From positions 1 through 29,478 of the IMG/VR virus record IMGVR_UViG_3300044846_001323: a stretch of 29,478 nt of DNA. The stretch is one strand, 5' to 3'. This stretch comes from a virus. Under the pieces are notes generated by a model. The model did no database searches. It saw only the letters and a list, made by a program, of their open reading frames with translations, and was not told the DNA's origin. The translations under genes and the position numbers were made by a program. This document shows positions 7,836-28,211 of the stretch, in pieces (position 1 is the stretch's first letter; the number at the start of each line of letters is the position of its first letter).

Positions 7836-8153
7836 ATGAATAAAGAAGATAACTTAAAACCAAATTGGGAAAAAGGCGAAAGTGGAAACCCAAACGGACG
7901 ACCAAAAGGCACAAAGAATAGAAGCACGATAGCACGCAAATGGCTTGAGGTTAATCAATCACTTAAGAACCCAATAACTGGCGAACAAGAAACGATGAGT
8001 CAAGAAGATATGATTACTTTGGCACTAATTAAAAAAGCAAGGGACGGGGACGTAAGCGCTTACAAAGAATTAATGAATAGTGGTTACGGCGCACCCGTTC
8101 AACAAATAGAACAAACGAATATAGAACAACCTTTATTCCCAGATGTTAGTTAG
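7836..8153 (+). CDS. Probable terminase small subunit (DUF5681-like)
   Basis: The product has 105 residues. The N-terminal motif GNPNGRPKGTKNR is typical of DUF5681 proteins, which occur next to phage large terminases. The rest is helical with a mid-section rich in acidic residues (MSQEDMITLALIKKARDGDVSAYKELM). It overlaps the large-subunit gene by 11 nt. The small subunit recognises phage DNA and recruits the large subunit for packaging. Assignment rests on the motif and position, since small terminases diverge strongly. Confidence 0.7.
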   Translation: MNKEDNLKPNWEKGESGNPNGRPKGTKNRSTIARKWLEVNQSLKNPITGEQETMSQEDMITLALIKKARDGDVSAYKELMNSGYGAPVQQIEQTNIEQPLFPDVS

Positions 8154-9303
8154 AACAACGGCGGTAAATAAAATTATAGCGTTAAAAAAACGAATCAAAA
8201 TAATACAAGGCGGTACAAGTGCGGGTAAAACATTTGGTATCATTCCTGTATTAATAAGCAAGGCAGCCAAAACACCAAACTTAGAAATTAGTATTGTTGC
8301 CGAATCAATCCCGCATTTAAGACGCGGAGCGCTCAAAGACTTTATAAACATAATGAAATGGACAAGCCGTTTTTTTGAAGGGCGCTTTAACAAATCATTA
8401 CTTAGATACGATTTCGGAAACGGAAGTTATATTGAATTTTTTAGCGCAGACGATTCAAGTAAGTTAAGGGGAGCGCGACGGGATATTTTATACATAAACG
8501 AATGCAACAACGTAACGTTTGAAGCGTACAACGAACTATCAATAAGAACCAAGCGTGAAATATTTTTAGACTTTAACCCAGCAAACGAATTCTGGGTGCA
8601 TACCGAACTAAAACACGAAGACGATAGCGACTTTCTAATTTTGACGTATAAGGACAACGAAGCACTCGACGAACGAATAGTTAAGGAAATAGAAAAGAAT
8701 CGTTCTAAGGCGTCGACAAGTAGTTATTGGGCGAACTGGTGGCGGGTTTATGGACTTGGCGAAATAGGAATGCTTGAGGGCGTTGTTTTCAGTAATTGGA
8801 AAATGATTGACACGATACCACGCGAAGCAAAGTTAATTGGTTATGGGTTGGATTTTGGATTTACAAACGACCCGACGGCAATAATAGAAATATACAATTA
8901 CAACGGGCAACGAATAGTAAACGAAATTGTTTTTCAAACGGGTTTAGTAAATAACGAAATAGCGAAGAAGCTACAAAAAAACGTAATAGCATACGCCGAT
9001 AGTAGCGAACCCAAATCAATCGAGGAAATAAGACGAACAGGGCAACTAATTAAAGGCGTTACAAAGGGACAAGACAGCGTTAATTTTGGTATTCAAATAA
9101 TGCAAAGCCAATCTTATTTAGTAACCGCACAAAGCACAAATCTAATAAAGGAGTTACGAGCTTATTGTTGGGATAGGGACAAGACAGGCAAACAACTAAA
9201 CAAACCAATAGACAACTTTAACCACACCATTGACGCGCTACGTTACCACGAAATGGAATCATTAGGCAAAAGCGCTAACTTTGGAAAATACTCAATAAGA
9301 TGA
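8143..9303 (+). CDS. terL: Terminase large subunit
   Basis: The product has 386 residues. The ATPase domain has Walker A GGTSAGKT at 23-30 and Walker B ILYINE at 115-120 (E120 catalytic; the usual Asp before it is Asn). A coupling-type segment, FLDFNPAN, follows at about 141-148. The C-terminal RNase-H-like nuclease shows its acidic residues in GYGLDFGFTNDP (D237), YADSS (D286) and NHTIDALRY (D364). The enzyme pumps DNA into the prohead and cuts it. The short length and motif style fit the PBSX-type (Terminase_3) group. A -/ATGA overlap with the next small gene keeps the operon continuous. Confidence 0.92.
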   Translation: MLVRTTAVNKIIALKKRIKIIQGGTSAGKTFGIIPVLISKAAKTPNLEISIVAESIPHLRRGALKDFINIMKWTSRFFEGRFNKSLLRYDFGNGSYIEFFSADDSSKLRGARRDILYINECNNVTFEAYNELSIRTKREIFLDFNPANEFWVHTELKHEDDSDFLILTYKDNEALDERIVKEIEKNRSKASTSSYWANWWRVYGLGEIGMLEGVVFSNWKMIDTIPREAKLIGYGLDFGFTNDPTAIIEIYNYNGQRIVNEIVFQTGLVNNEIAKKLQKNVIAYADSSEPKSIEEIRRTGQLIKGVTKGQDSVNFGIQIMQSQSYLVTAQSTNLIKELRAYCWDRDKTGKQLNKPIDNFNHTIDALRYHEMESLGKSANFGKYSIR

Positions 9304-9473
9304 CAAACGATTTAAACGTAATGGTTGCCGTAGTTGAAGAATATATATACCAGCGTAAAGGCGTTAAGGTAAAAATAAATATGTCGGATTCTAGGAAGTT
9401 TGTATTACATTTTGAGATGTTGCTTTACGCTTACGAAATCGCAGTTGCATATAACAAGAAACAAAAAACTTAA
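9300..9473 (+). CDS. Small protein (57 aa) of unknown function
   Basis: The ATG at 9300 overlaps the terL stop (ATGA). The 57-residue product begins MTNDLNVMVAVVEEYIYQRK, continues with a beta-like VKVKINMSD and ends in a helix (KFVLHFEMLLYAYEIAVAYNKK). It fills the gap between terL and the chaperone-like gene. No motif is recognised. The tight coupling supports it as a real gene. Confidence 0.5.
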   Translation: MTNDLNVMVAVVEEYIYQRKGVKVKINMSDSRKFVLHFEMLLYAYEIAVAYNKKQKT

Positions 9474-9483
9474 TTATATTAAT

Positions 9484-10176
9484 ATGAAATTAGATTTAAC
9501 CATACCGACTGATTTAAACGAAATTACCTTAGGGCAATACCAGCAATTTGTAAAGGTAAAAGAAACGACTAACGACAACGAAATGTTAGCGGAAAAAATG
9601 ATACAAATCTTTTGTGGAATAGAACTCAAAGAAATAGTAAATATTAAGTTTACTGAAGTTAAAAAATTAGTTGAACACTTTAATAAATTGTTTTCCGAGA
9701 CACCGAAGTTTGTACCGACATTTAAGATTAAAGATATGGAGTTTGGGTTTATTCCAGATTTACAAAATATAAGTTTTGGCGAATACGTAGACCTAGAAGA
9801 GAACTTAAAAAGTTGGGACACTTACCATAAAGCAATGGCGGTAATGTATCGTCCAATTAAACAAAAAGTAAAAGGCGGACACGAATTAATTGAGTACACT
9901 GGTACTGCGGAATTTTCCGATTTAATGAGGTTTGCACCGCTAGGAGTAACGTTAAGCTCGTCGGTTTTTTTTTGGAATTTAGGAAGCGAATTACTACAAA
10001 GTACGATTCACTATTTAGAGCAGGAGATAACGAAGAATCCGAAGGTATTGGAGATTTTAGCGAAGCAACACAATTTTCAAAACAATGGGGTTGGTATCAA
10101 TCAATTTATGCACTCGCTAAAGGAGATGTCAGCAAATTTGACGAAGTTACCGCATTGGGATTACTTAAATGTTTAA
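9484..10176 (+). CDS. Tail assembly chaperone-like protein, 0-frame product
   Basis: The start is the ATG at 9484 (MKLDLTIPTDLNEITLGQYQQF), giving 230 residues. The frame is open further upstream to 9400 but that part overlaps the previous gene. The opening, with a short beta segment and the phrase ITLGQYQQFV, is typical of Bacteroidota phage proteins of the tail-assembly-chaperone kind. At codons 161-163 the gene reads through nine Ts (9965-9973), and a second frame, open from 9894 to 10247, overlaps its last 283 nt. This is the G/GT layout of tail chaperones, which bind the tape measure protein during tail assembly. Unusually, the 0-frame continues for 67 codons past the slip site. Role inferred. 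Confidence 0.55.
   Translation: MKLDLTIPTDLNEITLGQYQQFVKVKETTNDNEMLAEKMIQIFCGIELKEIVNIKFTEVKKLVEHFNKLFSETPKFVPTFKIKDMEFGFIPDLQNISFGEYVDLEENLKSWDTYHKAMAVMYRPIKQKVKGGHELIEYTGTAEFSDLMRFAPLGVTLSSSVFFWNLGSELLQSTIHYLEQEITKNPKVLEILAKQHNFQNNGVGINQFMHSLKEMSANLTKLPHWDYLNV
9966..9972 (+). other. Candidate -1 ribosomal frameshift site (T_TTT_TTT)
   Basis: Nine Ts occupy 9965-9973. In the 0-frame, codons run GTT TTT TTT TGG, so T_TTT_TTT at 9966-9972 is in the correct X_XXY_YYZ phase. A one-base slip back leads into the frame that ends at 10247. The joined product would have 163 + 91 = 254 residues. A homopolymer sequencing error is the main alternative. Confidence 0.55.
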
Positions 10177-10247
10177 CCTACTTAACTTTTGAGAAACAAA
10201 AAAACGAAATAGAACAAAGGCAACTTAATAAATACATAAAAAAATGA
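9972..10247 (+). CDS. -1 frame extension of the tail chaperone (T part of GT)
   Basis: This 91-residue segment has no ATG and no Met codon; only the TTG made by the T-run itself could start it, so production as a -1 fusion with 9484 is more likely. The part FSKQWGWYQSIYALAKGD, then FDEVTALGLLKCLTYLTFEKQKNE, is well formed, with the aromatic WGWY and a helical Glu/Lys end like the downstream half of other Bacteroidota phage tail chaperones. It overlaps the 0-frame end for about 200 nt. Its stop overlaps the start at 10244 (ATGA). Seen: frame, lack of Met, slippery run. Inferred: fusion and role. Confidence 0.55.
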   Translation: MEFRKRITTKYDSLFRAGDNEESEGIGDFSEATQFSKQWGWYQSIYALAKGDVSKFDEVTALGLLKCLTYLTFEKQKNEIEQRQLNKYIKK

Positions 10248-10699
10248 TAGGCTTTTACACGGCAATAGACAAATTAAAAACACACTTTGACGCAGATGCG
10301 CTGGTTAATTCAGTAAGCGAAGGGGATATATTTCAAGTTGATTTAGCTAAACAAACTATTTTCCCACTTGTCCACATTATGGTCAATTCGTGTTCATTTG
10401 AAACAAACGTGTTGCGATTTAATATTTCTTTAATAGCAATGGACTTAGTCGATATTTCTAAGAACGAAAACACGAATGTATATTTAGGCAACGACAACAC
10501 ACAAGACGCTTTAAACTCGACGCTAGCTATCTTAAACCGCGCCTACGATATTATGTTACACGGAAGCCTTGCATACGACTTATTCCAGATTGACGGAAAC
10601 CCAAACTGCGAACCATTTACCGAACGATTCGAAAACTTACTTTCAGGTTGGACGATGACGTTTGACGTTTTAGTTCCTAACGAAATGACTATTTGTTAA
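10244..10699 (+). CDS. Tail terminator-like structural protein, putative
   Basis: The product has 151 residues and mixed alpha/beta character: a starting helix (IGFYTAIDKLKTHFDADAL), strands (IFPLVHIMVNSCSFETNVLRFNISLIAMD, in pieces), a helix (TQDALNSTLAILNRAYDIMLHGS) and closing strands (GWTMTFDVLVPNEMTIC). This order, with a minor-tail alpha/beta fold and its place beside the gp10-like gene, fits a tail terminator or tail completion protein that caps the tail and joins it to the head. No strong motif supports it, so the call is contextual. Confidence 0.45.
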   Translation: MIGFYTAIDKLKTHFDADALVNSVSEGDIFQVDLAKQTIFPLVHIMVNSCSFETNVLRFNISLIAMDLVDISKNENTNVYLGNDNTQDALNSTLAILNRAYDIMLHGSLAYDLFQIDGNPNCEPFTERFENLLSGWTMTFDVLVPNEMTIC

Positions 10700-15694: not shown

Positions 15695-15852
15695 TTGCGC
15701 TAATTATTCAACTTTTGGAATCGTCCGAACATTACGGGCAATCCGAAAATATAGAAATAGCAAAAGGAAAATACATTTTAGCCACAACAATAAAACAAAG
15801 TTGGAAAAAAGCAAAGCGACAAATAATTTATAATAAAAAACGAAATGGCTGA
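15691..15852 (+). CDS. Small basic protein (53 aa), coupled to the tape measure gene
   Basis: The ATG at 15691 overlaps the previous stop (ATGA) and its own stop falls 8 nt inside the tape measure gene. The product (MIALIIQLLESSEHYGQ...) has a hydrophobic start and a basic end (IKQSWKKAKRQIIYNKK). It occupies the 150-nt gap between two certain genes. No function is recognised; it may be a tail assembly accessory. Confidence 0.5.
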   Translation: MIALIIQLLESSEHYGQSENIEIAKGKYILATTIKQSWKKAKRQIIYNKKRNG

Positions 15853-18232
15853 AAAACGAACGATTGAACTTGAAATAAATTCAAACGCAAAAACACTTAA
15901 ACAACAATTTAAAGAAGCTCAACAAGAAGTCCAATTATTGTCCGAAAAGTTTGGAGCAACGTCTAAGCAAGCAATTGAAGCCGCTAAAAGTGCCGCTTCA
16001 TTAAAAGACCAAATAGGCGACGCAAAAGCATTAACCGACGCATTTAACCCAGACGCAAAATTCAAAGCGGTAAGCGCTTCTTTAACGGGCGTAGCGGGTG
16101 GTTTTTCAGTTGTTACTGGCGCAATGGGAGCGTTTGGTACGCAATCCGAAGAAGTAGAACAAGCGTTGCTGAAAGTTCAATCCGCAATGGCAATGGCTTC
16201 AGGTTTACAAGCAATAGGCGAAGCAAAAGATTCGTTTAAACAATTAGGCGGTGTTGTTAAAGATACGTTTAGAAATTTATCAAGCGAAAGCTCGTTAGCT
16301 GGCAAAGCAACAAGCGCTTTAGGACCAATATGGAAAGCCGTCGGATTAAGTGGTAAAACGGCATTAAACGGAATTAGAGCGGGTATAGCGGCAACTGGAA
16401 TAGGTTTACTTGTGATTGCGTTGGGTGCTGTTGTTGCTTATTGGGACGATATTAAAGCGGCGGTTAGTGGGGTTAATGGTACAATGCAAAAAAACTTAGA
16501 ATTAAGTAAACAACAAGTTGAAACCGCTCAATCGGAAGTTGAATTATTTGACTTACAAGAAAACTCATTAAAATTACAAGGAAAAACGGAATTAGAAATA
16601 ATAAGGTTACGTCAAAACAAACTAAAATTACTTGTTAAGGAACAAGAAGAAGACATAAAATTAGCTGAAAACAAAAAGAATTTAGAAGTAGAAGCGTCAA
16701 AACGAAATCAAAAGTTTTTAAGCATTTATTTTCAATACATTTTAATGGGAATGACTGCAACTGGTTATATTTTCACTGGAATAATTGACGGAGTAAGTAA
16801 TGGAGTGGTTTTTTTAGTTAAAAAATTAGTTTCGTTTAATCAAGGTTTCCAAGATATTATGGTTGATGCGCTCGTTTTCCCAATAGAAACGGCATTAAAA
16901 GGAGTAAACGAATTGCTCAAATTAGCGGGTTTGTCAACGATAAATGTTAAGGGAATAGTTGGCGACATTAAAGGTTCAATAAAGGAAATAAACAAAGAAA
17001 CAAACAACTTTGTCAAAGGATTAGAAGGCACTAATTTATCGGCTGGTTTGTTTAATTTAACCGCAGATTACGCCGCCGACCCGTTGTCGAAAATGATTTT
17101 TGACCCTGAAGCGGTTGCAGCCGAAGGGGACGCTTCAATTAAAGCAATGAAGATTGAACTTGCTAAAAGCAAAAACGAAGTTGACGGAGCAGAATTAGAA
17201 ATACAAGGCATAAAAAAAGAGTCAGCAAAAAAACAAGCAAAAGACGCAAAAGAAGCAAATAATTCTTTAACGGAATATTACGATGCAATTGAAGCGGAAC
17301 GACAAGCTAAAATAACGGACGCACGCGAAAAAGAATTACAAGACGCGGCTAATAAATATGACGAGCTTACATTATTAGCGGATAAGGCGGGACAAAGCAC
17401 GACACAAATAGACGAAAATTACAGAACTCAATTACACGAAATAAATAAAAAGTTTGACGATTTAGACAAAGTAGCAAAAGACGAAAAAACGGCAAAAGAT
17501 AAGGAACGACTAGAAAAAGAAAAAACATTTTTAGAATCAATTACGCTAAGTGAAAACGAATTAAAATTAGCAAAACTTGAGGAACAATATTTAGCCGAAA
17601 CACTTTTATACAAAGACAACGCAGAAATTTTAGCCGCTTTAGATAAAAAATACCAAAAGGACAAAGAAGCGTTAAACACCGAAACAAATGATAAAATTGC
17701 AGCCGCCGACAAAGAAGCAGCCGATAAAAAACAAGCCTTATTAAATTCTCAATTAGGAGCGGTTAAAGACGGATTAAGTGCAATTTCAAACATAGCCGAA
17801 TTATTCGCGGGTAAAAGTAAAGCAAGCCAAAAACGAGCGTTTGACGTTCAAAAGGCAACGAACATAGCGACTGCAACAATTGATACTTTTATGAGTGCGC
17901 AAAGTGCTTATAAGTCGCTTATTGGCGTTCCCGTTGTTGGTCCAGTTATAGCACCTTTAGCGGCGGCGGGTGCAATAGCGGCGGGTTTAATAAATATTAA
18001 GAAAATCAAAGCCACTCAATTTGAGGGCGGAACACCCCCAACGGATAGTAGCGTTCCAACCGCTCAAACAGGTGGAGAACCACAAGCACCCCAATTTAAC
18101 GTTGTCGGAAATAACGGAATGAATCAATTAGCGCAACTGCAACAACAACCCGTTCAAGCGTATGTAGTAAGTTCCGAAATGACAAGCGCACAAGCTCTCG
18201 AAAGGAATAGAATAAATAATGCAACAATTTAA
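15845..18232 (+). CDS. Tape measure protein
   Basis: The product has 795 residues. The N-terminus is Lys/Glu/Gln-rich helical (LKQQFKEAQQEVQLLSEKFG), followed by a Gly/Ala-rich part. Hydrophobic segments lie at about 177-200 (IGLLVIALGAVVAYW), at about 295-325 (ILMGMTATGYIFTGII) and near the C-terminus (VIAPLAAAGAIAAGLI). A long Ala/Lys/Glu coiled-coil section lies at about 440-640. It ends VVSSEMTSAQALERNRINNATI (in part), which resembles the C-terminal motif of Bacteroidota phage tape measures. It sets tail length and may form a channel in the host membrane on infection. At about 0.15 nm per residue the tail would be about 120 nm. Identification is firm from size, composition and context. 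Confidence 0.85.
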   Translation: MAEKRTIELEINSNAKTLKQQFKEAQQEVQLLSEKFGATSKQAIEAAKSAASLKDQIGDAKALTDAFNPDAKFKAVSASLTGVAGGFSVVTGAMGAFGTQSEEVEQALLKVQSAMAMASGLQAIGEAKDSFKQLGGVVKDTFRNLSSESSLAGKATSALGPIWKAVGLSGKTALNGIRAGIAATGIGLLVIALGAVVAYWDDIKAAVSGVNGTMQKNLELSKQQVETAQSEVELFDLQENSLKLQGKTELEIIRLRQNKLKLLVKEQEEDIKLAENKKNLEVEASKRNQKFLSIYFQYILMGMTATGYIFTGIIDGVSNGVVFLVKKLVSFNQGFQDIMVDALVFPIETALKGVNELLKLAGLSTINVKGIVGDIKGSIKEINKETNNFVKGLEGTNLSAGLFNLTADYAADPLSKMIFDPEAVAAEGDASIKAMKIELAKSKNEVDGAELEIQGIKKESAKKQAKDAKEANNSLTEYYDAIEAERQAKITDAREKELQDAANKYDELTLLADKAGQSTTQIDENYRTQLHEINKKFDDLDKVAKDEKTAKDKERLEKEKTFLESITLSENELKLAKLEEQYLAETLLYKDNAEILAALDKKYQKDKEALNTETNDKIAAADKEAADKKQALLNSQLGAVKDGLSAISNIAELFAGKSKASQKRAFDVQKATNIATATIDTFMSAQSAYKSLIGVPVVGPVIAPLAAAGAIAAGLINIKKIKATQFEGGTPPTDSSVPTAQTGGEPQAPQFNVVGNNGMNQLAQLQQQPVQAYVVSSEMTSAQALERNRINNATI

Positions 18233-18253
18233 GAAAACTTTAATTAAATAGAT

Positions 18254-18850
18254 ATGCGAATAGTTGAACTCATAATAGACGAACAAGACGAGCAAAGCGG
18301 AATCGACGCAATAAGCGTTGTTATGTCGCCAGCGATAGAATCTAATTTTATTCACTTGTCAAAACACGAAATCGAACTCAAAGAAGTTGACGCAGAAAAG
18401 CGCATTTTAATGGGTGCGGCTTTAATACCAAACAAACAAATTTACCGCAAAAACGATAAGACAAAAGACGAATACTATATTTATTTTTCGGAAGCAACTA
18501 TAAGAAAAGCAAGCGAGTTGTTTTTAATGAACGCAAATCAAAATAATAGTACGTTAGAACATAGCCAAAAATTAAAAGGAATGTCAGTTGTTGAAAGTTG
18601 GATTGTGGAAAGCGATAACGACAAATCTAAAAACTACGGGTTTAATTTTCCGAAAGGTACTTGGGTAATTTCTATGAAAGTAAACAACGACGAAATTTGG
18701 AACAAAGTTAAATTAGGCGAAGTTAAAGGATTTTCAATAGAGGGTTATTTTGCGGATAGGTACGAAATGAATATAGACGAAGATGAAATTTTAGTTGAAA
18801 AAATCAAAGCAATTATTAAAAATGGCGAAGCAAAAGAGCTAAAAAAATAA
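18254..18850 (+). CDS. XkdF-like prohead serine protease
   Basis: The product has 198 residues. Features typical of the phage XkdF-like protease family (Peptidase_S78_2) are VVMSPAIESNFIHLSK at about 22-37, LEHSQKLKGMSVVESWIVE with H103, FPKGTWVISMKV at about 132-143, and KLGEVKGFSIEGYF with S161. H103 and S161 are the likely catalytic His and Ser. The enzyme would trim the scaffold and capsid during head maturation. It stands just before scaffold-like and capsid genes, in the standard head order. An acidic/basic C-terminal tail follows the catalytic domain. Confidence 0.75.
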   Translation: MRIVELIIDEQDEQSGIDAISVVMSPAIESNFIHLSKHEIELKEVDAEKRILMGAALIPNKQIYRKNDKTKDEYYIYFSEATIRKASELFLMNANQNNSTLEHSQKLKGMSVVESWIVESDNDKSKNYGFNFPKGTWVISMKVNNDEIWNKVKLGEVKGFSIEGYFADRYEMNIDEDEILVEKIKAIIKNGEAKELKK

Positions 18851-18862
18851 AAAAACATAAAT

Positions 18863-18913
18863 GCGTTTTAAAGCGGTTTTAACGCGATTTAACGAACTTT
18901 AATACTTTAACGA
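18863..18913 (+). repeat. Short tandem repeats, GCGnTTTTAAn-like
   Basis: In the 88-nt gap after the protease gene, three adjacent 10-11 nt units are visible, GCGTTTTAAA (18863), GCGGTTTTAAC (18873) and GCGATTTAAC (18884), followed by degraded copies (GAACTTTAATAC, TTTAACGA) to about 18913. The array could be a binding site or promoter element of a phage regulator, or only a composition effect. Confidence 0.45.
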
Positions 18914-18938
18914 TAGATTATACCTAAAACTAAAGATA

Positions 18939-19112
18939 ATGAAAAATCCAACAAACATAAAGGTTTCCGACGTAGCAAAAAAAGAAATTGAAAGACCGCG
19001 TTCAAGTCCAATTGGGGGTCGAAGGGGTTGTTTATGTAAGGACGGAAAGCGCTATTCTCGGAAGTGTTGCGACGGCTCTTTACAAGCTCAAGGAATCGGA
19101 AACGTAAATTAA
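18939..19112 (+). CDS. Cysteine-rich small protein (57 aa), CxC...CC motif
   Basis: The ATG at 18939 opens a 57-codon frame in the gap between protease and coiled-coil genes. The product has a basic middle (RPRSSPIGGRRG), then GCLCKDGKRYSRKCCDG, and ends LQAQGIGNVN. The C-x-C-x9-C-C arrangement is a compact disulphide or zinc knuckle. Similar CxC...YS..CCDG....QGIG endings occur, from memory, in other Bacteroidota phage structural proteins. The position within the head module suggests a minor virion or assembly part. No family name is known to me. Confidence 0.6.
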   Translation: MKNPTNIKVSDVAKKEIERPRSSPIGGRRGCLCKDGKRYSRKCCDGSLQAQGIGNVN

Positions 19113-19149
19113 TTTTACAACAAAAAATAAACAATTAAATTATATAACT

Positions 19150-19515
19150 ATGAATACACTAAAAACCATTTACGACAAATTAGGCGACAAGACCGAGCTA
19201 GCAAAACACGAAGTTGAGTTGGGAAAAATAGATGATTTTAAGAAGATGCTTAACGACTCAAAAAATTTGACATTAAATTTTACTAAAGAATACGAAAAAT
19301 TATTAGTTGTTGCTAGAGGCGTAAATAATCTAGCAAATAATTATATTGCATCAGTAGAAAAGTTAAATAGTGTTCAAAGTAACATTGAAAATCAATTTAA
19401 AGAATTAGGATTAGATTGGGGCTCAACTCCTGAAAAAAAGGCATATAACGATTTATTAATTAAACAACCTATAAGTAATTATAAGAAAATTCAAGGAGGA
19501 TTACAACAAATATAA
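19150..19515 (+). CDS. Coiled-coil head-module protein of unknown function
   Basis: The product has 121 residues, nearly all helical: TELAKHEVELGKIDDFKKMLND, then repeated Lys/Glu/Asn heptads and NQFKELGLDWGSTPEKKAYND near the end. It lies between the protease and the scaffold-like gene, so a scaffold or core component is possible. Bases after about 19260 contain far fewer CpG than the start, suggesting recombination within the gene. No motif identifies it. Confidence 0.5.
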   Translation: MNTLKTIYDKLGDKTELAKHEVELGKIDDFKKMLNDSKNLTLNFTKEYEKLLVVARGVNNLANNYIASVEKLNSVQSNIENQFKELGLDWGSTPEKKAYNDLLIKQPISNYKKIQGGLQQI

Positions 19516-19533
19516 ACAAAACAAAAATCAAAT

Positions 19534-20115
19534 ATGAAAACAAGCGTAATTAATCAAATCAAAACTTTGCTCGGAATGGACGTAAAGTTAGAACAAAGAA
19601 AAATGGCGGACGGCGTTACACTAATCGAAGCAGATGCGTTCGAAATGGATAACGAAGTTTTTGTTATAACTGAAGACGAGCAAAAAATACCTGTTCCGAT
19701 TGGCGAGTATGAAATGGAAGACGGCTTTATTTTATCCGTAGTTGAAGAGGGTTTAATTGCTGATTACAAAGAAAAAGCAACCGAAGAAGAAGAAGCGCCA
19801 GTTGCCGAAGAAGAAGTTGTTGAAGAAGAAGTTGAAGCAAAAAACGAAAACGTAGCACCTAAGAAAACAATTGAAAGCGTAGTTAAAGAAACTTTCTTTT
19901 CGGAAATGGAAGCGCTTATAAACGAAAATACGGAGTTAAAAGCTAAATTGGAATTGTTAACCAAAGTTGACGCAGTTGAATTAGAATCAACCGAACTTTC
20001 GGACATTAAACCAATTAGTTTTAATCCTGAGAATAACAAAGAAATTGAATTCCACAAAATAGGCGCTAAAAGACCGCGTAACACAATGGATTCTATATTA
20101 GACAAAATTAAATAA
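19534..20115 (+). CDS. Scaffold-like acidic protein
   Basis: The product has 193 residues. A small beta-rich start (LEQRKMADGVTLIEADAFEMDNEVFVITEDEQKIPVPIGEY, in pieces) is followed by an extremely acidic Glu/Val stretch (EEEEAPVAEEEVVEEEVEA, about 88-106) and a helical C-terminus (TFFSEMEALINENTELKAKLELL). It lies between the protease and the major capsid gene, the usual place for an internal scaffold or capsid-assembly core. It would be removed by the upstream protease. Function is inferred from order and composition. Confidence 0.6.
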   Translation: MKTSVINQIKTLLGMDVKLEQRKMADGVTLIEADAFEMDNEVFVITEDEQKIPVPIGEYEMEDGFILSVVEEGLIADYKEKATEEEEAPVAEEEVVEEEVEAKNENVAPKKTIESVVKETFFSEMEALINENTELKAKLELLTKVDAVELESTELSDIKPISFNPENNKEIEFHKIGAKRPRNTMDSILDKIK

Positions 20116-20142
20116 TTACTAACAATTAAAAATTAAAAAGAA

Positions 20143-21087
20143 ATGCCAACACAACCAGTTATTACTACTACTTATGCGGGACAATTTGCGGGTAAGTATA
20201 TTAGTGCCGCACTACTAAGCGCACCAACAATCGAAAATGGCGGAGTTACCGTTATGCCGAATATTAAATTCAAATCAGTTATTCAACGTTTAGAAACTGC
20301 AAACGTTCTTGAGGACGCTTCTTGTGATTTTCAAACAAACTCAACGGTTTCTTTAACCGAGAGAATTTTAGAAGTTAAGGACATACAAGTTAATATGCAA
20401 TTGTGCAAGTCCCAATTTCATAATACTTGGCAAGGAATTGAGCAAGGTTTTTCGTCTTTTGACGTATTGCCAAAATCTTTTTCTGATTACTTAATTGCAC
20501 ACGTAGCGTCTCAAGTTGCTTCCGCTAACGAAGTATCTTTATGGCAAGGTTCAAGTGCAGTTTCGGGAGAATTTGACGGATTGTTTTCAACGGCTTTAGT
20601 TGACCCTTTGTTACCACCCGCACAATTGATTAACAACGTTGCGATTACACCCGCTAACGTAATTGCTCAACTTGCTTTAGTTGAAGCGCAAATTCCCGCA
20701 ACACTTTACGGAAAATCTGATTTAAAGATTTATGTTTCACAAAACGTTGCAAAGGCTTATGTTTCCGCTTTAGGTGGTTTCGGTGCTTTGGGTACTAACT
20801 CACAAGCAAATGCGGGTGTGAATTCAATGGGTACAATGTGGTATACAAACGGAGCTTTGTCTTATTCGGGAATACCAATTTTTATGGCAAACGGATTGCC
20901 TAACGATTCAATGATGGCAACAACAACATCTAACCTTTACTTTGGTTGTTCACTTTTGAGCGACACTCAAGAAGTACGTGTTATTGATATGTCGGATATT
21001 GACGGAAGTCAAAACGTTCGTGTAATTATGAGAATGGCTGCGGGTGCAACTTACGGAGTTATCGAGGATATCGTAGTTTACGGATAA
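20143..21087 (+). CDS. Major capsid protein
   Basis: The product has 314 residues and is rich in Ala, Ser, Val and Asn, with an even mix of beta strands and helices. Early residues (MPTQPVITTTYAGQFAGKYIS) and the segment NEVSLWQGSSAVSGEFDGLFSTAL resemble capsid proteins of Bacteroidota phages. Later, LKIYVSQNVAKAYVSALGGFG and the C-terminal YFGCSLLSDTQEVRVIDMSD fit an HK97-like A-domain and end. It directly follows protease and scaffold-like genes and is followed by a hairpin terminator, as expected for the most abundant virion protein. No cross-linking or decoration domain is obvious. Confidence 0.78.
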   Translation: MPTQPVITTTYAGQFAGKYISAALLSAPTIENGGVTVMPNIKFKSVIQRLETANVLEDASCDFQTNSTVSLTERILEVKDIQVNMQLCKSQFHNTWQGIEQGFSSFDVLPKSFSDYLIAHVASQVASANEVSLWQGSSAVSGEFDGLFSTALVDPLLPPAQLINNVAITPANVIAQLALVEAQIPATLYGKSDLKIYVSQNVAKAYVSALGGFGALGTNSQANAGVNSMGTMWYTNGALSYSGIPIFMANGLPNDSMMATTTSNLYFGCSLLSDTQEVRVIDMSDIDGSQNVRVIMRMAAGATYGVIEDIVVYG

Positions 21088-21096
21088 TCATTTAAC

Positions 21097-21120
21097 GGGG
21101 TGGGCAACCACCCCTTATTA
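21097..21120 (+). terminator. Hairpin after the capsid gene, partial terminator
   Basis: GGGGTGG (21097-21103) pairs perfectly with CCACCCC (21108-21114) around GCAA, a stable 7-bp stem. Only a short mixed T/A tail follows (TTATTA), so read-through is likely. It lies 10 nt after the capsid stop and may also stabilise the capsid mRNA. Confidence 0.65.
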
Positions 21121-21145
21121 TAAACAATACTAAAAACATAAACAA

Positions 21146-21700
21146 ATGAGTTGTGATATTACACACGGTAGATTGGAGCAATGTAAAGACGTCGTTGGCG
21201 GTTTACAAGCTATCTACATATTAAATTATGGGGAATACGACGCAACAACGGACGTTACCTATAATGTTGGAACAGACGAAATTTCGGCTATTGCTTTAAC
21301 TACGGCTGGAACACCAATTTACAAATTTGAATTAAAGGGAACAAACTCTTTTGAAACAACAATTACAAGTTCACGTGAAAACGGAACTACATTCTTTGAG
21401 CAAGTTTTGGCTATTACATTAAAGAAACAAGACGTTCAAACGCACAAAGAAATTAAGTTACTTACTTACGGAAGACCAAATATTATTGTTCGCACAAACG
21501 CAAACCAATTCTTTATTGCAGGGCTTGAAAGAGGTATGGACGTAACGGCTGGGACTATCGGAAACGGAACGGCTCTTGGCGATATGAATGGTTATTCTTT
21601 GACTTTCACAGGTCAAGAGGCAGTACCCGCAAATTTCCTAGATTGTACTACCGAAGCTGGTTTAGCAACTTTGTTGAATAACGCGGTTATTACGGTATAA
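21146..21700 (+). CDS. Probable major tail (tube) protein
   Basis: The product has 184 residues. It starts MSCDITHGRLEQCKDVVGGLQAIY (in part), then alternates beta strands (ITVTYNVGTDEISAIAL-type, YKFELKGTNSFETTITSS) with NGTTFFEQVLAITLKKQD and closes with TYGRPNIIVRTNANQFFIAGLERGMDV and SLTFTGQEAVPANFL (in pieces). The single-domain beta-rich pattern and the last motif fit tail tube proteins. It is insulated by a hairpin before it and a strong terminator after it, suggesting high expression. It sits in the head module away from the tape measure, so the call is moderate. A minor capsid protein is an alternative. Confidence 0.55.
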   Translation: MSCDITHGRLEQCKDVVGGLQAIYILNYGEYDATTDVTYNVGTDEISAIALTTAGTPIYKFELKGTNSFETTITSSRENGTTFFEQVLAITLKKQDVQTHKEIKLLTYGRPNIIVRTNANQFFIAGLERGMDVTAGTIGNGTALGDMNGYSLTFTGQEAVPANFLDCTTEAGLATLLNNAVITV

Positions 21701-21723
21701 AAAGACGTTTTATTGGTTAAAAC

Positions 21724-21757
21724 TAAAAGGGGGTTGCATTCGTGTAACCCTTTTTTT
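21724..21757 (+). terminator. Strong intrinsic terminator with TTCG tetraloop
   Basis: GGGTTGCA (21731-21738) pairs with TGTAACCC (21743-21750), including one G-T wobble, around a TTCG loop. A run of seven Ts (21751-21757) follows, and upstream As can extend the stem. It ends the probable tail tube transcript. Downstream genes then need read-through or another promoter, and none was recognised. Confidence 0.85.
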
Positions 21758-21792
21758 ATGAAACAAAAAACCAAAAATCTAATTATATAAAT

Positions 21793-22131
21793 ATGATAGT
21801 TTTAACTACCCAAAACGTATTAACTCAAACCTTTAATTGTACGCCACGAACGGGAACGATTACGGACTTATTAATTACGGACGAATCAACAAACGTTACT
21901 ATCAATGTTCCGATTATTAATCAAGGGTTGTTTAGTTATTTTTACCAAATAGAAGCCATATTTAACCTTACGGAAAATCGTTTTTATATGATTGAATTAC
22001 AAGACACGAACGGAAATAGATTACTATTAGAAAAAGCATTTTGCACGAATCAACCATTAGCGACGTTCTCGGTTAACAACGGGCAATATGTTTCGAATAC
22101 CACAACCAACGAATTTATAATTTATGAATAA
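21793..22131 (+). CDS. Small structural protein of unknown function
   Basis: The product has 112 residues and is beta-rich (IVLTTQNVLTQTFNCTPRTGTITDLLITDESTNVTINVP, in pieces, then FYMIELQDTNGNRLLLEKAF). It starts 35 nt after the terminator and overlaps the portal gene by 8 nt. A neck or decoration protein is possible. The fold looks like an Ig-like or jelly-roll beta sandwich, but no family is recognised. Confidence 0.5.
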   Translation: MIVLTTQNVLTQTFNCTPRTGTITDLLITDESTNVTINVPIINQGLFSYFYQIEAIFNLTENRFYMIELQDTNGNRLLLEKAFCTNQPLATFSVNNGQYVSNTTTNEFIIYE

Positions 22132-23890
22132 TTACCACGTACTTAATTTATCGAGTTATACCACACCAATAGTTGAGGAAACTAACCGCGAAAATTGGGT
22201 TGATTTCTTAACGGAAAACGGCGAACAATACTTTGATTTCTTAATTGACCGATACACGAATAGCACGACGAATAACGCAATAATAAACAATATTTGTAGA
22301 TTAGTTTACGGACGTGGTTTGGGTGCGTTAGACGCTTCTAAAAAGGTTAATGAGTATGCGCAAATGATGACTTTGTTTTCACGCGAAGACGTACGCAAAA
22401 TGATTATTGATAGAAAAATGTTAGGGCAATTTGCCGTTCAGGTACATTATTCAAAAGACCGAACAAAAATATTAAAGGCTTATCATATACCAGTTAATCT
22501 TTTACGAGCTGAAAAATGCAATAAAGAAGGCGAAATAGCAGGTTACTATTATAGCGACAATTGGAACGATACTAGACAATTTCCACCTATGCGATATTCG
22601 GCGTTTGGGTTTTCAAATGACAACGTTGAAATACTTTATTCTAAGCCTTATTCAGTTGGAATGAAATACTACGCTTACCCAGACTATCAAGGCGCAGTAC
22701 CATACGCTTTGCTTGAACAAGAAATAGGCGACTATTTAATAAACGAAGTACAAAACGGCTTTTCAGGAACTAAGGTTGTGAACTTTAATAACGGAGTTCC
22801 GAGCGAAGAACAACAATCGATTATTAGCCAAAAGGTACTAAACAAACTAACAGGTTCACGCGGTCAAAAAGTAATTGTTGCGTTTAATGACAACGCCGAA
22901 TCTAAAACAACGGTTGAGGATATACCATTAAACGACGCACCAGAACACTATACATATTTAAGCGAAGAATGTTTACGTAAAATAATGTTAGGACACAACG
23001 TTACAAGTCCTTTATTATTTGGGGTTGCTTCTTCAAATGGTTTTGGTTCAAATGCCGACGAATTAAAAAATAGTGCTGTTCTTTTTGACAATATGGTTAT
23101 ACGTCCATTCCAAGAAGAACTAATAGACGCATTCGACACGATTTTACATTTTAACGGAATAAGCCTAAAACTATTTTTCAAGACGTTACAACCTTTAGAA
23201 TTTACCGACTTAGAAAACGCACAAACTGAAGAACAAATAGCTGAAGAAACAGGAACGGAATTAAGCGCAGACCCAAAAAGCGACGCGCTTGCGCAAGCTC
23301 TTATTGATATGGGCGAAGACGTAGACCCAAATTGGTTATTAATAGACGAAAACGCAGTTGATTACGATAACGACGACGACGAAAATCAACTATTAAGCAA
23401 AGAAATTAAGCAAAGTTTTTTAAGTAAAGTTGTTAATTTAGTTTCTACGGGTTCGGCGTTCCCGAATTCAAAGAGTGAACAAGACGAAAATATAGACGGG
23501 TTTCAATTTATTACGCGTTACGTTTACGCTGGCGAACAAAAAGCAAACGGGAGGGCATTTTGTAGACAAATGATTTCGGCAAACAAAATATATCGTAAAG
23601 AAGACATTATTAGAATGGAAACGCAAGTTGTAAACGCTGGTTTAGGACCGCGCGGAACTGATTTATATTCTATTTGGTTGCATAAAGGCGGAGCTAATTG
23701 TTATCATCGTTGGAACAAACAAGTTTACGTTAATTTTTCAGGTTCAGGAATAGACGTTAATTCGCCAAAAGCAAAAAGAATAGCAGGGGCAAAAGCCGAA
23801 AAGTTTGGTTATGTAATTAAGAACCCAAGTTTAGTTGCGACAAGACCAATAGACACACCAACACGAGGTTTTTTACCTAAAACTAAATAA
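22124..23890 (+). CDS. Portal protein with C-terminal extra domain
   Basis: The product has 588 residues. The first ~400 read as a portal: NAIINNICRLVYGRGLG, KMIIDRKMLGQFAVQVHYSKD, AYHIPVNLLRAEKC, then a wing/stem part with EECLRKIMLGHNVTSPLLFG and NADELKNSAVLFDNMVIRPFQEELIDAFD (in pieces). Portals form the dodecameric ring through which DNA enters. An acidic linker (DENAVDYDNDDDENQLLSKE) leads to a C-terminal domain of about 150 residues with FCRQMISANKIYRKEDIIRME and KGGANCYHRWNKQVY. That part looks like a separate module, possibly a minor head protein domain, fused to the portal. The portal call is good; the second domain's role is unknown. Confidence 0.75.
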   Translation: MNNYHVLNLSSYTTPIVEETNRENWVDFLTENGEQYFDFLIDRYTNSTTNNAIINNICRLVYGRGLGALDASKKVNEYAQMMTLFSREDVRKMIIDRKMLGQFAVQVHYSKDRTKILKAYHIPVNLLRAEKCNKEGEIAGYYYSDNWNDTRQFPPMRYSAFGFSNDNVEILYSKPYSVGMKYYAYPDYQGAVPYALLEQEIGDYLINEVQNGFSGTKVVNFNNGVPSEEQQSIISQKVLNKLTGSRGQKVIVAFNDNAESKTTVEDIPLNDAPEHYTYLSEECLRKIMLGHNVTSPLLFGVASSNGFGSNADELKNSAVLFDNMVIRPFQEELIDAFDTILHFNGISLKLFFKTLQPLEFTDLENAQTEEQIAEETGTELSADPKSDALAQALIDMGEDVDPNWLLIDENAVDYDNDDDENQLLSKEIKQSFLSKVVNLVSTGSAFPNSKSEQDENIDGFQFITRYVYAGEQKANGRAFCRQMISANKIYRKEDIIRMETQVVNAGLGPRGTDLYSIWLHKGGANCYHRWNKQVYVNFSGSGIDVNSPKAKRIAGAKAEKFGYVIKNPSLVATRPIDTPTRGFLPKTK

Positions 23891-23893
23891 ACA

Positions 23894-24637
23894 ATGGCAG
23901 AAGCATTACTAATTTCACGCAACGACATCGTAAAATTTACCGCACTTAACGGAAATATTGACACTGATTCTTTTATTCAATGGATTAAAGTGGCTCAAGA
24001 TATTCATATACAAAACTACTTAGGCACGAATTTACTTGAAAAATTACAAAGTGACGTTACAAAATTAGTTACAAAAGTACCCGTAGGAATTCAAGTAATT
24101 GCGGGCGGTTCGGGTTATTCGGGGGCGGGTTTAAGTACAACGGCAATTGCACCAAGCACTGGTTCTGGAATGATTGTTAATTGCGGTTTTTCGGGTGGTT
24201 CAGTTGTTACGGCTAACTTTGTAGCTCAAGGTTCAGGGTATAACGTTGGAGACCAAGTTACTATTAACGGCGGAAATAATGACGCGATTCTTCAAGTTAC
24301 TCAATTGTTTGCTATTTTACCTAACTACTTAAATTTATTAAACACTTACGTAAAGCCTATGCTTATACATTGGGCAATGGTTGAGTACTTGCCGTTTTCA
24401 GCTTATACAATAGCGAATAAGGGCGTGTTCAAACATACAAGCGAAAACGCTACGTCGGTAGAAAAAAACGAAGTAGATTTCTTAGTTGAAAAGGAACGAA
24501 TGATTGCGCAAAATTATACGGAACGTTTTATAACTTACATTAATTTTAATAATTCTTTATTCCCTGAATATAGCACAAACTCAAATGCGGATATGTTCCC
24601 AAGCACTCAAAACAATTTTACAGGTTGGTATATATGA
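23894..24637 (+). CDS. Head-tail connector (DUF6712-like) with inserted beta domain
   Basis: The product has 247 residues. Residues 1 to about 60 (LISRNDIVKFTALNGNIDTD, IQNYLGTNLLEKLQSDV) and about 138-247 (LPNYLNLLNTYVKPMLIHW, then PFSAYTIANKGVFKHTSENA) match an all-helical head-tail connector family of Bacteroidota phages (DUF6712). Between them lies a Gly/Ser/Val-rich segment of about 75 residues (62-136), with GGSGYSGAG and GSGYNVGDQVTINGGNND, which looks like an exchangeable beta domain inserted in a helix-loop. The gene follows the portal by 3 nt. The connector role is by family and order; the insertion is seen directly. Confidence 0.7.
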   Translation: MAEALLISRNDIVKFTALNGNIDTDSFIQWIKVAQDIHIQNYLGTNLLEKLQSDVTKLVTKVPVGIQVIAGGSGYSGAGLSTTAIAPSTGSGMIVNCGFSGGSVVTANFVAQGSGYNVGDQVTINGGNNDAILQVTQLFAILPNYLNLLNTYVKPMLIHWAMVEYLPFSAYTIANKGVFKHTSENATSVEKNEVDFLVEKERMIAQNYTERFITYINFNNSLFPEYSTNSNADMFPSTQNNFTGWYI

Positions 24638-24717
24638 AAAAGAAGCACAAACCAAAAGAAACAAACATAAAAAAGTTACTCGTTTACTTAACGAAACTAA
24701 ACAAAGAAAAAAAATAA
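24634..24717 (+). CDS. Very short basic peptide (27 aa)
   Basis: The ATG at 24634 overlaps the connector stop (ATGA) and opens 27 codons, MKKKHKPKETNIKKLLVYLT then KLNKEKK. It is strongly basic with no membrane segment. The stop is 2 nt before the next start. It could be a real small gene or only a coupling stretch for the membrane protein downstream. Confidence 0.35.
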   Translation: MKKKHKPKETNIKKLLVYLTKLNKEKK

Positions 24718-28185: not shown

Positions 28186-28211
28186 TGCGACTTGACAACG
28201 CATTTTTTTTT
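28186..28211 (+). terminator. Weak terminator-like hairpin
   Basis: TGCG (28186-28189) pairs with CGCA (28199-28202) around a 9-nt loop and is followed by nine Ts (28203-28211). The stem is only 4 bp, so it may reduce but not stop transcription between the genes at 27832 and 28233. Confidence 0.45.

Follow-up and report, generated by a model that had tools for sequence, protein, structure and literature searches.

Does one gene of this phage encode two proteins with different endings, and if so, is it the ribosome or the RNA polymerase that changes frame? The question is raised by a run of nine Ts within a gene that lies just after the terminase gene. The window, that is, the whole stretch of DNA that was analysed, comprises 29,478 nt (IMG/VR virus record IMGVR_UViG_3300044846_001323, positions 1-29,478), read as a single strand from 5' to 3'. 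The features relevant to the question are as follows.

8143-9303, + strand: large terminase subunit, the conserved upstream neighbour
9484-10176, + strand: 0-frame gene of 230 aa, made up of the shared N-terminal domain (codons 1-161; phrog_32199, family alignment) and the 0-frame tail
9965-9973, + strand: slip site, the T9 run, in codons GTT TTT TTT TGG (9964-9975)
9966-9972, + strand: in-phase T_TTT_TTT heptamer inside the T9 run
9972-10247, + strand: -1 frame tail (LEFRKR...WGWYQSIYALAKGD...), 91 codons plus stop, a predicted helical domain probably entered solely via the run
9974-10173, + strand: region apparently decoded twice, with protein-level selection on both frames in the family and the +1 frame shut within a few codons
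10244-10247, + strand: ATGA, where the -1 stop and the next gene's ATG overlap
10244-10699, + strand: conserved downstream neighbour, phrog_30964, of unknown function
15845-18232, + strand: tape measure protein, given for context

The slip gene and its two open frames

Starting from the ATG at 9484, the 0-frame continues for 67 codons past the slip's second Phe to its stop at 10174-10176. The -1 frame, which lacks a Met codon, is open over positions 9894-10247. Both frames are open over about 280 nt, some 200 nt of these being 3' of the run. A shift at the run would give a fusion product of about 254 aa with the junction residues V-F-F-L-E-F, and WGWYQSIYALAK is a peptide specific to the -1 tail. 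A sequence-only reading of this DNA had described the run, the heptamer in phase for a -1 slip, the Met-less -1 frame and the long continuation of the 0-frame, all of which we found again in the sequence. It had also placed the gene 5.7 kb ahead of the tape measure gene rather than next to it; by our count the distance to the start of that gene, at 15845, is 5.6 kb. As an observation, this reading of the slip gene was right and understated. The window is AT-rich and contains four T9 runs, so the run by itself proves nothing, whereas its conservation does. The other T9 runs are at 132 and 27681, both apparently intergenic, and at 28203, inside a doubtful open frame.

Conservation of the run and selection on both frames

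Viral contigs were scanned with the 0-frame protein as query, using peptide patterns away from the run, and 80 relatives were retrieved; the -1 tail and the shared N-terminal domain, used as further queries, enlarged the set. The patterns of the -1 tail scans touched FFL, whereas those of the N-terminal-domain and 0-frame scans lay off FFL, and the results agreed. Most relatives are metagenome contigs, and because some were fetched under more than one identifier we counted distinct contexts, removing identical 60-nt surroundings (n=271). Among the 80 relatives, NTT TTT TTT TGG was in phase and both frames were open in all that reached the run. In the full set the slip place held at least nine Ts in 271 of 271 distinct contexts (T9 in 261, T10 in 10, shorter in none), and both frames were open wherever the sequence of a relative allowed them to be read. 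T9 also occurs in a close relative contig with 93% protein identity and in two cultured Nonlabens phages, P12024L and P12024S, where gp40 contains the same run and gp41 continues its -1 frame. Among those listed protein genes of P12024L that were checked, no other A or T run reaches nine. Bacteroidales prophage genes with 41-49% GC, in which TTT and TTC are used about equally, retain T9; no viral contig matched a Prevotella prophage query. On this comparison, the slip gene occurs in many viruses of Bacteroidetes bacteria, in which the T9 run would give two protein endings.

Homopolymers are error-prone and a few relatives carry T10, so a sequencing or assembly error, or a decayed gene that is really one intact ORF with ten (or eight) Ts, has to be considered. 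Such a reading is hard to reconcile with T9 in 261 distinct contexts drawn from many assemblies and in two cultured phage genomes, with many independently assembled contigs of which one is 93% identical at the protein level, with a -1 relation of the two tails that is kept in nearly all T10 members, or with the selection on both frames described below. For the family, the sequence comparison already refutes it, and we give it almost no credence. At the level of assembled contigs, the many T9 runs also answer the concern of the sequence-only reading that reads might show ten Ts.

Selection was examined in 46 members under 78% nucleotide identity. Upstream of the slip, their synonymous codons are near saturation (identity 0.455, against 0.430 expected for independent draws). 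The protein of one frame was then held fixed while its synonymous codons were redrawn, and the other frame was scored. With the -1 protein fixed, the real 0-frame had a mean BLOSUM score between members of 1.43 compared with 0.60 for the redrawn sequences (z 25.8), and every segment of the overlap was significant (z 21, 14, 16, 7 and 5). The 0-frame contained 0 stops against about 186 after redrawing (minimum 163 in 100 draws), a zero that is partly by construction, the overlap having been defined as the part before the 0-frame stop. The similarity score is free of this bias, and so is the chance of reaching the observed 0-frame lengths, which summed over the 46 members to about 10 to the -118, a value that is too extreme in that the first Leu codon was also redrawn. 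As controls, the shadow frame of the non-overlapping upstream part gave z -1.6 to 2.0 with stops about as expected, and the -1-only tail past the 0-frame stop gave z 4.5 and no stop deficit. In the reverse test, with the 0-frame protein fixed, the -1 frame scored z 59.8, with 0 stops against 263. Third positions of the -1 frame changed at 0.087 in the overlap, compared with 0.159 in the -1-only part and 0.213 at upstream third positions. The +1 frame shuts after a median of 2 codons, and after 14 at most.

The -1 frame, that of the fused product, is the more strongly conserved of the two; the 0-frame varies in length after the run from 19 to 101 codons (median 62 in the relatives, 67 here), and where the overlap changes fastest, it is the 0-frame protein that is altered. 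These features would suit a gene in which only the -1 fusion is functional and the 0-frame extension is passively open as the shadow of a conserved -1 protein. The recoding test contradicts this already: a passive shadow would carry about 186 stops and show lower similarity, and the controls came nowhere near z 25.8. We therefore consider a passive 0-frame very improbable, and both frames appear, from the alignments, to be selected as protein throughout the overlap. The sequence-only reading had proposed a real slip gene in the -1 direction with a long doubly coding overlap, and had named homologues with one frame unconserved as the outcome that would speak against it. The conserved run and the selection bear out the proposal, and in the homologues both frames are conserved at the protein level.

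An independent start for the -1 tail was considered and rejected. An ATG before the WGW motif is absent in 239 of 251 contexts. In 50 of the 251, three codons or fewer upstream of the run are enough to close the -1 frame, and conservation of this frame starts at the run. In 182 of 241 relatives, and at 10244 in the window, the -1 stop and the next gene's ATG overlap as ATGA, whereas the 0-frame stop lies a median of 67 nt before that ATG. Ribosomes therefore most likely reach the -1 tail through the run. The ATGA overlap also means that the gene at 10244 may be translationally coupled to the slipped product.

Polymerase or ribosome

An in-phase X_XXY_YYZ heptamer (T_TTT_TTT) is present in every context, the shift is in the -1 direction like that of most G/GT pairs, and two alternative frames follow an N-terminal domain with weak similarity to tail assembly chaperones. 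Programmed -1 ribosomal frameshifting of the classical kind, like that of lambda G/GT, acting at T_TTT_TTT would account for all of this, the extra Ts being explained by flanking hydrophobic or aromatic residues. Any T9, though, contains an in-phase T_TTT_TTT, so the heptamer alone does not decide the matter, and what appears to be conserved is the length of the run rather than merely the heptamer within it. The phase of the run varies, the first T being at codon position 2 in 232 contexts, at position 3 in 35 and at position 1 in 4 (n=271). The extra Ts 5' and 3' of the in-phase heptamer are distributed as (1,1) in 226 contexts, (0,2) in 33, (2,0) in 2, (1,2) in 6, (2,1) in 2 and (0,3) in 2, which makes a total of two in T9 and three in T10 and in no context less than two, a surplus on one side offsetting a shortage on the other. 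On a tree of the N-terminal domain the phase changed at least six times; the non-standard phases are confined to a few clades, so that independent switches are few (about six). Residue preferences, a V, I or L codon before and an aromatic residue after, explain one extra T on each side but not this compensation, which ribosomal frameshifting does not predict.

Nor does it predict two further features of the run. All 238 loci of the first set have T as the third base of the second Phe codon, a position where a change would be silent in either frame in the common phase, whereas 26% of upstream Phe codons are TTC, and other heptamers such as T_TTT_TTC are lacking. T10 members occur but T8 members never do. 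The genome of Dysgonomonas sp. 520 has two prophage copies, one with T9 and the fusion in the -1 frame and one with T10, in which the frames are swapped: the fusion is in the 0-frame, the other tail is in +1, and both are still open. The second product of the T10 copy, which may be an assembly error or a decaying copy, is out of reach of a -1 ribosomal shift. Sequences downstream of the run showed no excess RNA stability (mean z near 0), and a stimulatory hairpin was thus rejected; upstream, no synonymous constraint was found as far as codon -2. The absence of a stimulatory signal is a weak argument by itself, as some tailed phages carry out ribosomal shifts without such signals (PMC5009743). 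In E. coli, U_UUU_UUU is a poorer ribosomal shifter than A_AAA_AAG (PMC5009743). For transcriptional realignment, T runs of more than eight are listed (PMC3711429); a common threshold is nine, the length at which selection against A/T runs shows in many bacteria (PMC1088944).

Since the length is kept across phase changes and no RNA structure is conserved, RNA-polymerase slippage is favoured. The sequence-only reading had assumed ribosomal -1 slippage, which is not supported as it was stated; a length of at least nine across phases and the lack of a stimulatory signal point instead to transcription. On the comparative evidence we favour transcriptional slippage over ribosomal frameshifting, giving it about twice the weight, and regard the ribosomal explanation as rather unlikely, though a serious competitor.

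Under the explanation that we prefer, one phage gene would yield two proteins with about 161 N-terminal residues in common and different C-terminal tails. Most messages would carry nine Us and give the 230-aa 0-frame protein, presumably the major form. In a fraction of messages the RNA polymerase would add one extra U by slipping on the template strand's nine As, and these messages would give the protein of about 254 aa, which ends in the conserved WGWY helical tail. Loss of one U would lead into the +1 frame and to a stop almost at once. Both tails would be encoded in the same stretch of about 200 nt and maintained by selection, and the two forms would probably be tail-assembly chaperones made in a fixed ratio, an assignment drawn from the analogous G/GT pairs of other tailed phages. 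As a whole, polymerase slippage on T9, two selected tails and a probable chaperone pair, this explanation seems to us reasonably probable. It is founded on the conserved run, the two selected frames and the run as the sole evident entry to the -1 frame, all from comparative sequence; from these we infer the choice of RNA polymerase over ribosome, the identity of the major form and the tail-chaperone role.

The proteins, their neighbourhood and comparison with known systems

The shared domain matched phrog_32199 (unknown function) in 46 of 46 members and the -1 tail matched phrog_38404 in 13 of 46; PHROGs keeps the two as separate unknown families. A tail chaperone was hinted at by weak similarity: the N-terminal helices matched Phage_TAC_7 with a best E of 0.0026, below the cut-off for significance, and phrog_166 ('tail protein') with a best value of 2.5e-5, in 8 of 46 members. 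AlphaFold modelled most of residues 1-160 of the 0-frame protein with confidence, the 0-frame tail being weak and mostly helical; its model of the -1 tail has three helices and is confident from about residue 31 on. Comparison of the 0-frame and -1 tail models with the PDB gave no confident match to a solved structure. Structure matches in BFVD were uncharacterised relatives, with named chaperones only at E 0.2-0.8. Several BFVD entries, among them A0A516L611 and A0A6J5N0W0, matched the -1 tail as well as the 0-frame model; going by the models, these may be single proteins of the fused kind. Three candidates for a more distant relationship were rejected: a structural match to protein R9VW65 of Flavobacterium phage 6H (191 aa, the length of gp10; TM 0.32-0.36), gp10 being outside the chaperone position; the terminase-adjacent gene of Phocaeicola phage BM127P2, with no detectable relation; and the annotated tail chaperone of FpV9, with no profile similarity.

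A terminase gene precedes the slip gene in 160 of 210 relatives with enough flank, and a homologue of the gene at 10244 follows it in 160 of 164. In the window, an open frame of 57 codons (9300-9473) lies between the terminase and slip genes, its ATG overlapping the terminase stop. The order is unusual in mixing head with tail genes (15845-23890): terminase, slip gene and, further on, tape measure, head protease, a capsid-like gene, the likely tail tube (21146-21700) and portal.

It is well known that tailed phages have conserved tail chaperones made by a frameshift, which is assumed to be ribosomal. The pairs formed by lambda gpG/gpGT and their counterparts (Phage_TAC families) resemble the present gene in having one start and two proteins, a shared N-terminal domain, a -1 relation, an alternative C-terminal domain and a place in the structural region of a tailed phage, and the two products with a change of frame that mark these chaperones are indicated here by the conserved slip run and two selected frames. 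In G/GT pairs, though, the 0-frame usually ends soon after the slip, whereas here it has a long tail of 19-101 codons that is itself apparently selected. The slip site here is always T9 or T10, there is no significant profile match, and the position differs: the gene comes after the terminase, with the tape measure 5.6 kb further on, and not between the genes for the major tail protein (likely that at 21146) and the tape measure (15845). The tail-chaperone identity proposed in the sequence-only reading thus keeps the sub-threshold similarity to Phage_TAC_7 and the weak similarity to phrog_166 on its side, and has the lack of a confident solved-structure match and the place directly after the terminase against it; by analogy, we consider the role plausible.

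Bacterial genes with transcriptional slippage (Thermus dnaX, with A9; Shigella mxiE and spa13; IS elements) likewise have an A/T homopolymer of about nine or more and two products, and such a homopolymer, of conserved length, is found here in 271 of 271 contexts whatever the phase. They differ in that the present gene belongs to a phage structural region and its post-slip region would be coding in two frames. The open-access literature that we searched contained no case of transcriptional slippage in a tail chaperone gene, which does not prove that none exists. Closest to the window are gp40 and gp41 of the Nonlabens (Persicivirga) phages P12024L and P12024S (the pair is at 23946-24640 in P12024L), with a homologous N-terminal domain, T9 in the same place, a homologous -1 WGWY tail and, as here, the terminase gene directly before. 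They differ in that the 0-frame ends 25 codons after FF and that the annotation lists two separate hypothetical genes.

Together, our analyses suggest, tentatively and at somewhat less than an even chance, that polymerase slippage on an invariant T9, rather than ribosomal frameshifting, sets the proportion in which two tail-assembly (chaperone-like) proteins are made in a widespread Bacteroidota phage family, with two full-length selected tails read from the same nucleotides. Automated annotation splits or misses this gene, as the two PHROGs families and the two hypothetical genes of the cultured phages illustrate, and the cultured P12024 phages make the slippage question directly testable. 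If it is true that homopolymer length, and not just a heptamer, is kept in a large phage family, this would be a second route to the two-protein arrangement, alongside a conserved two-frame overlap of often 60-90 codons.
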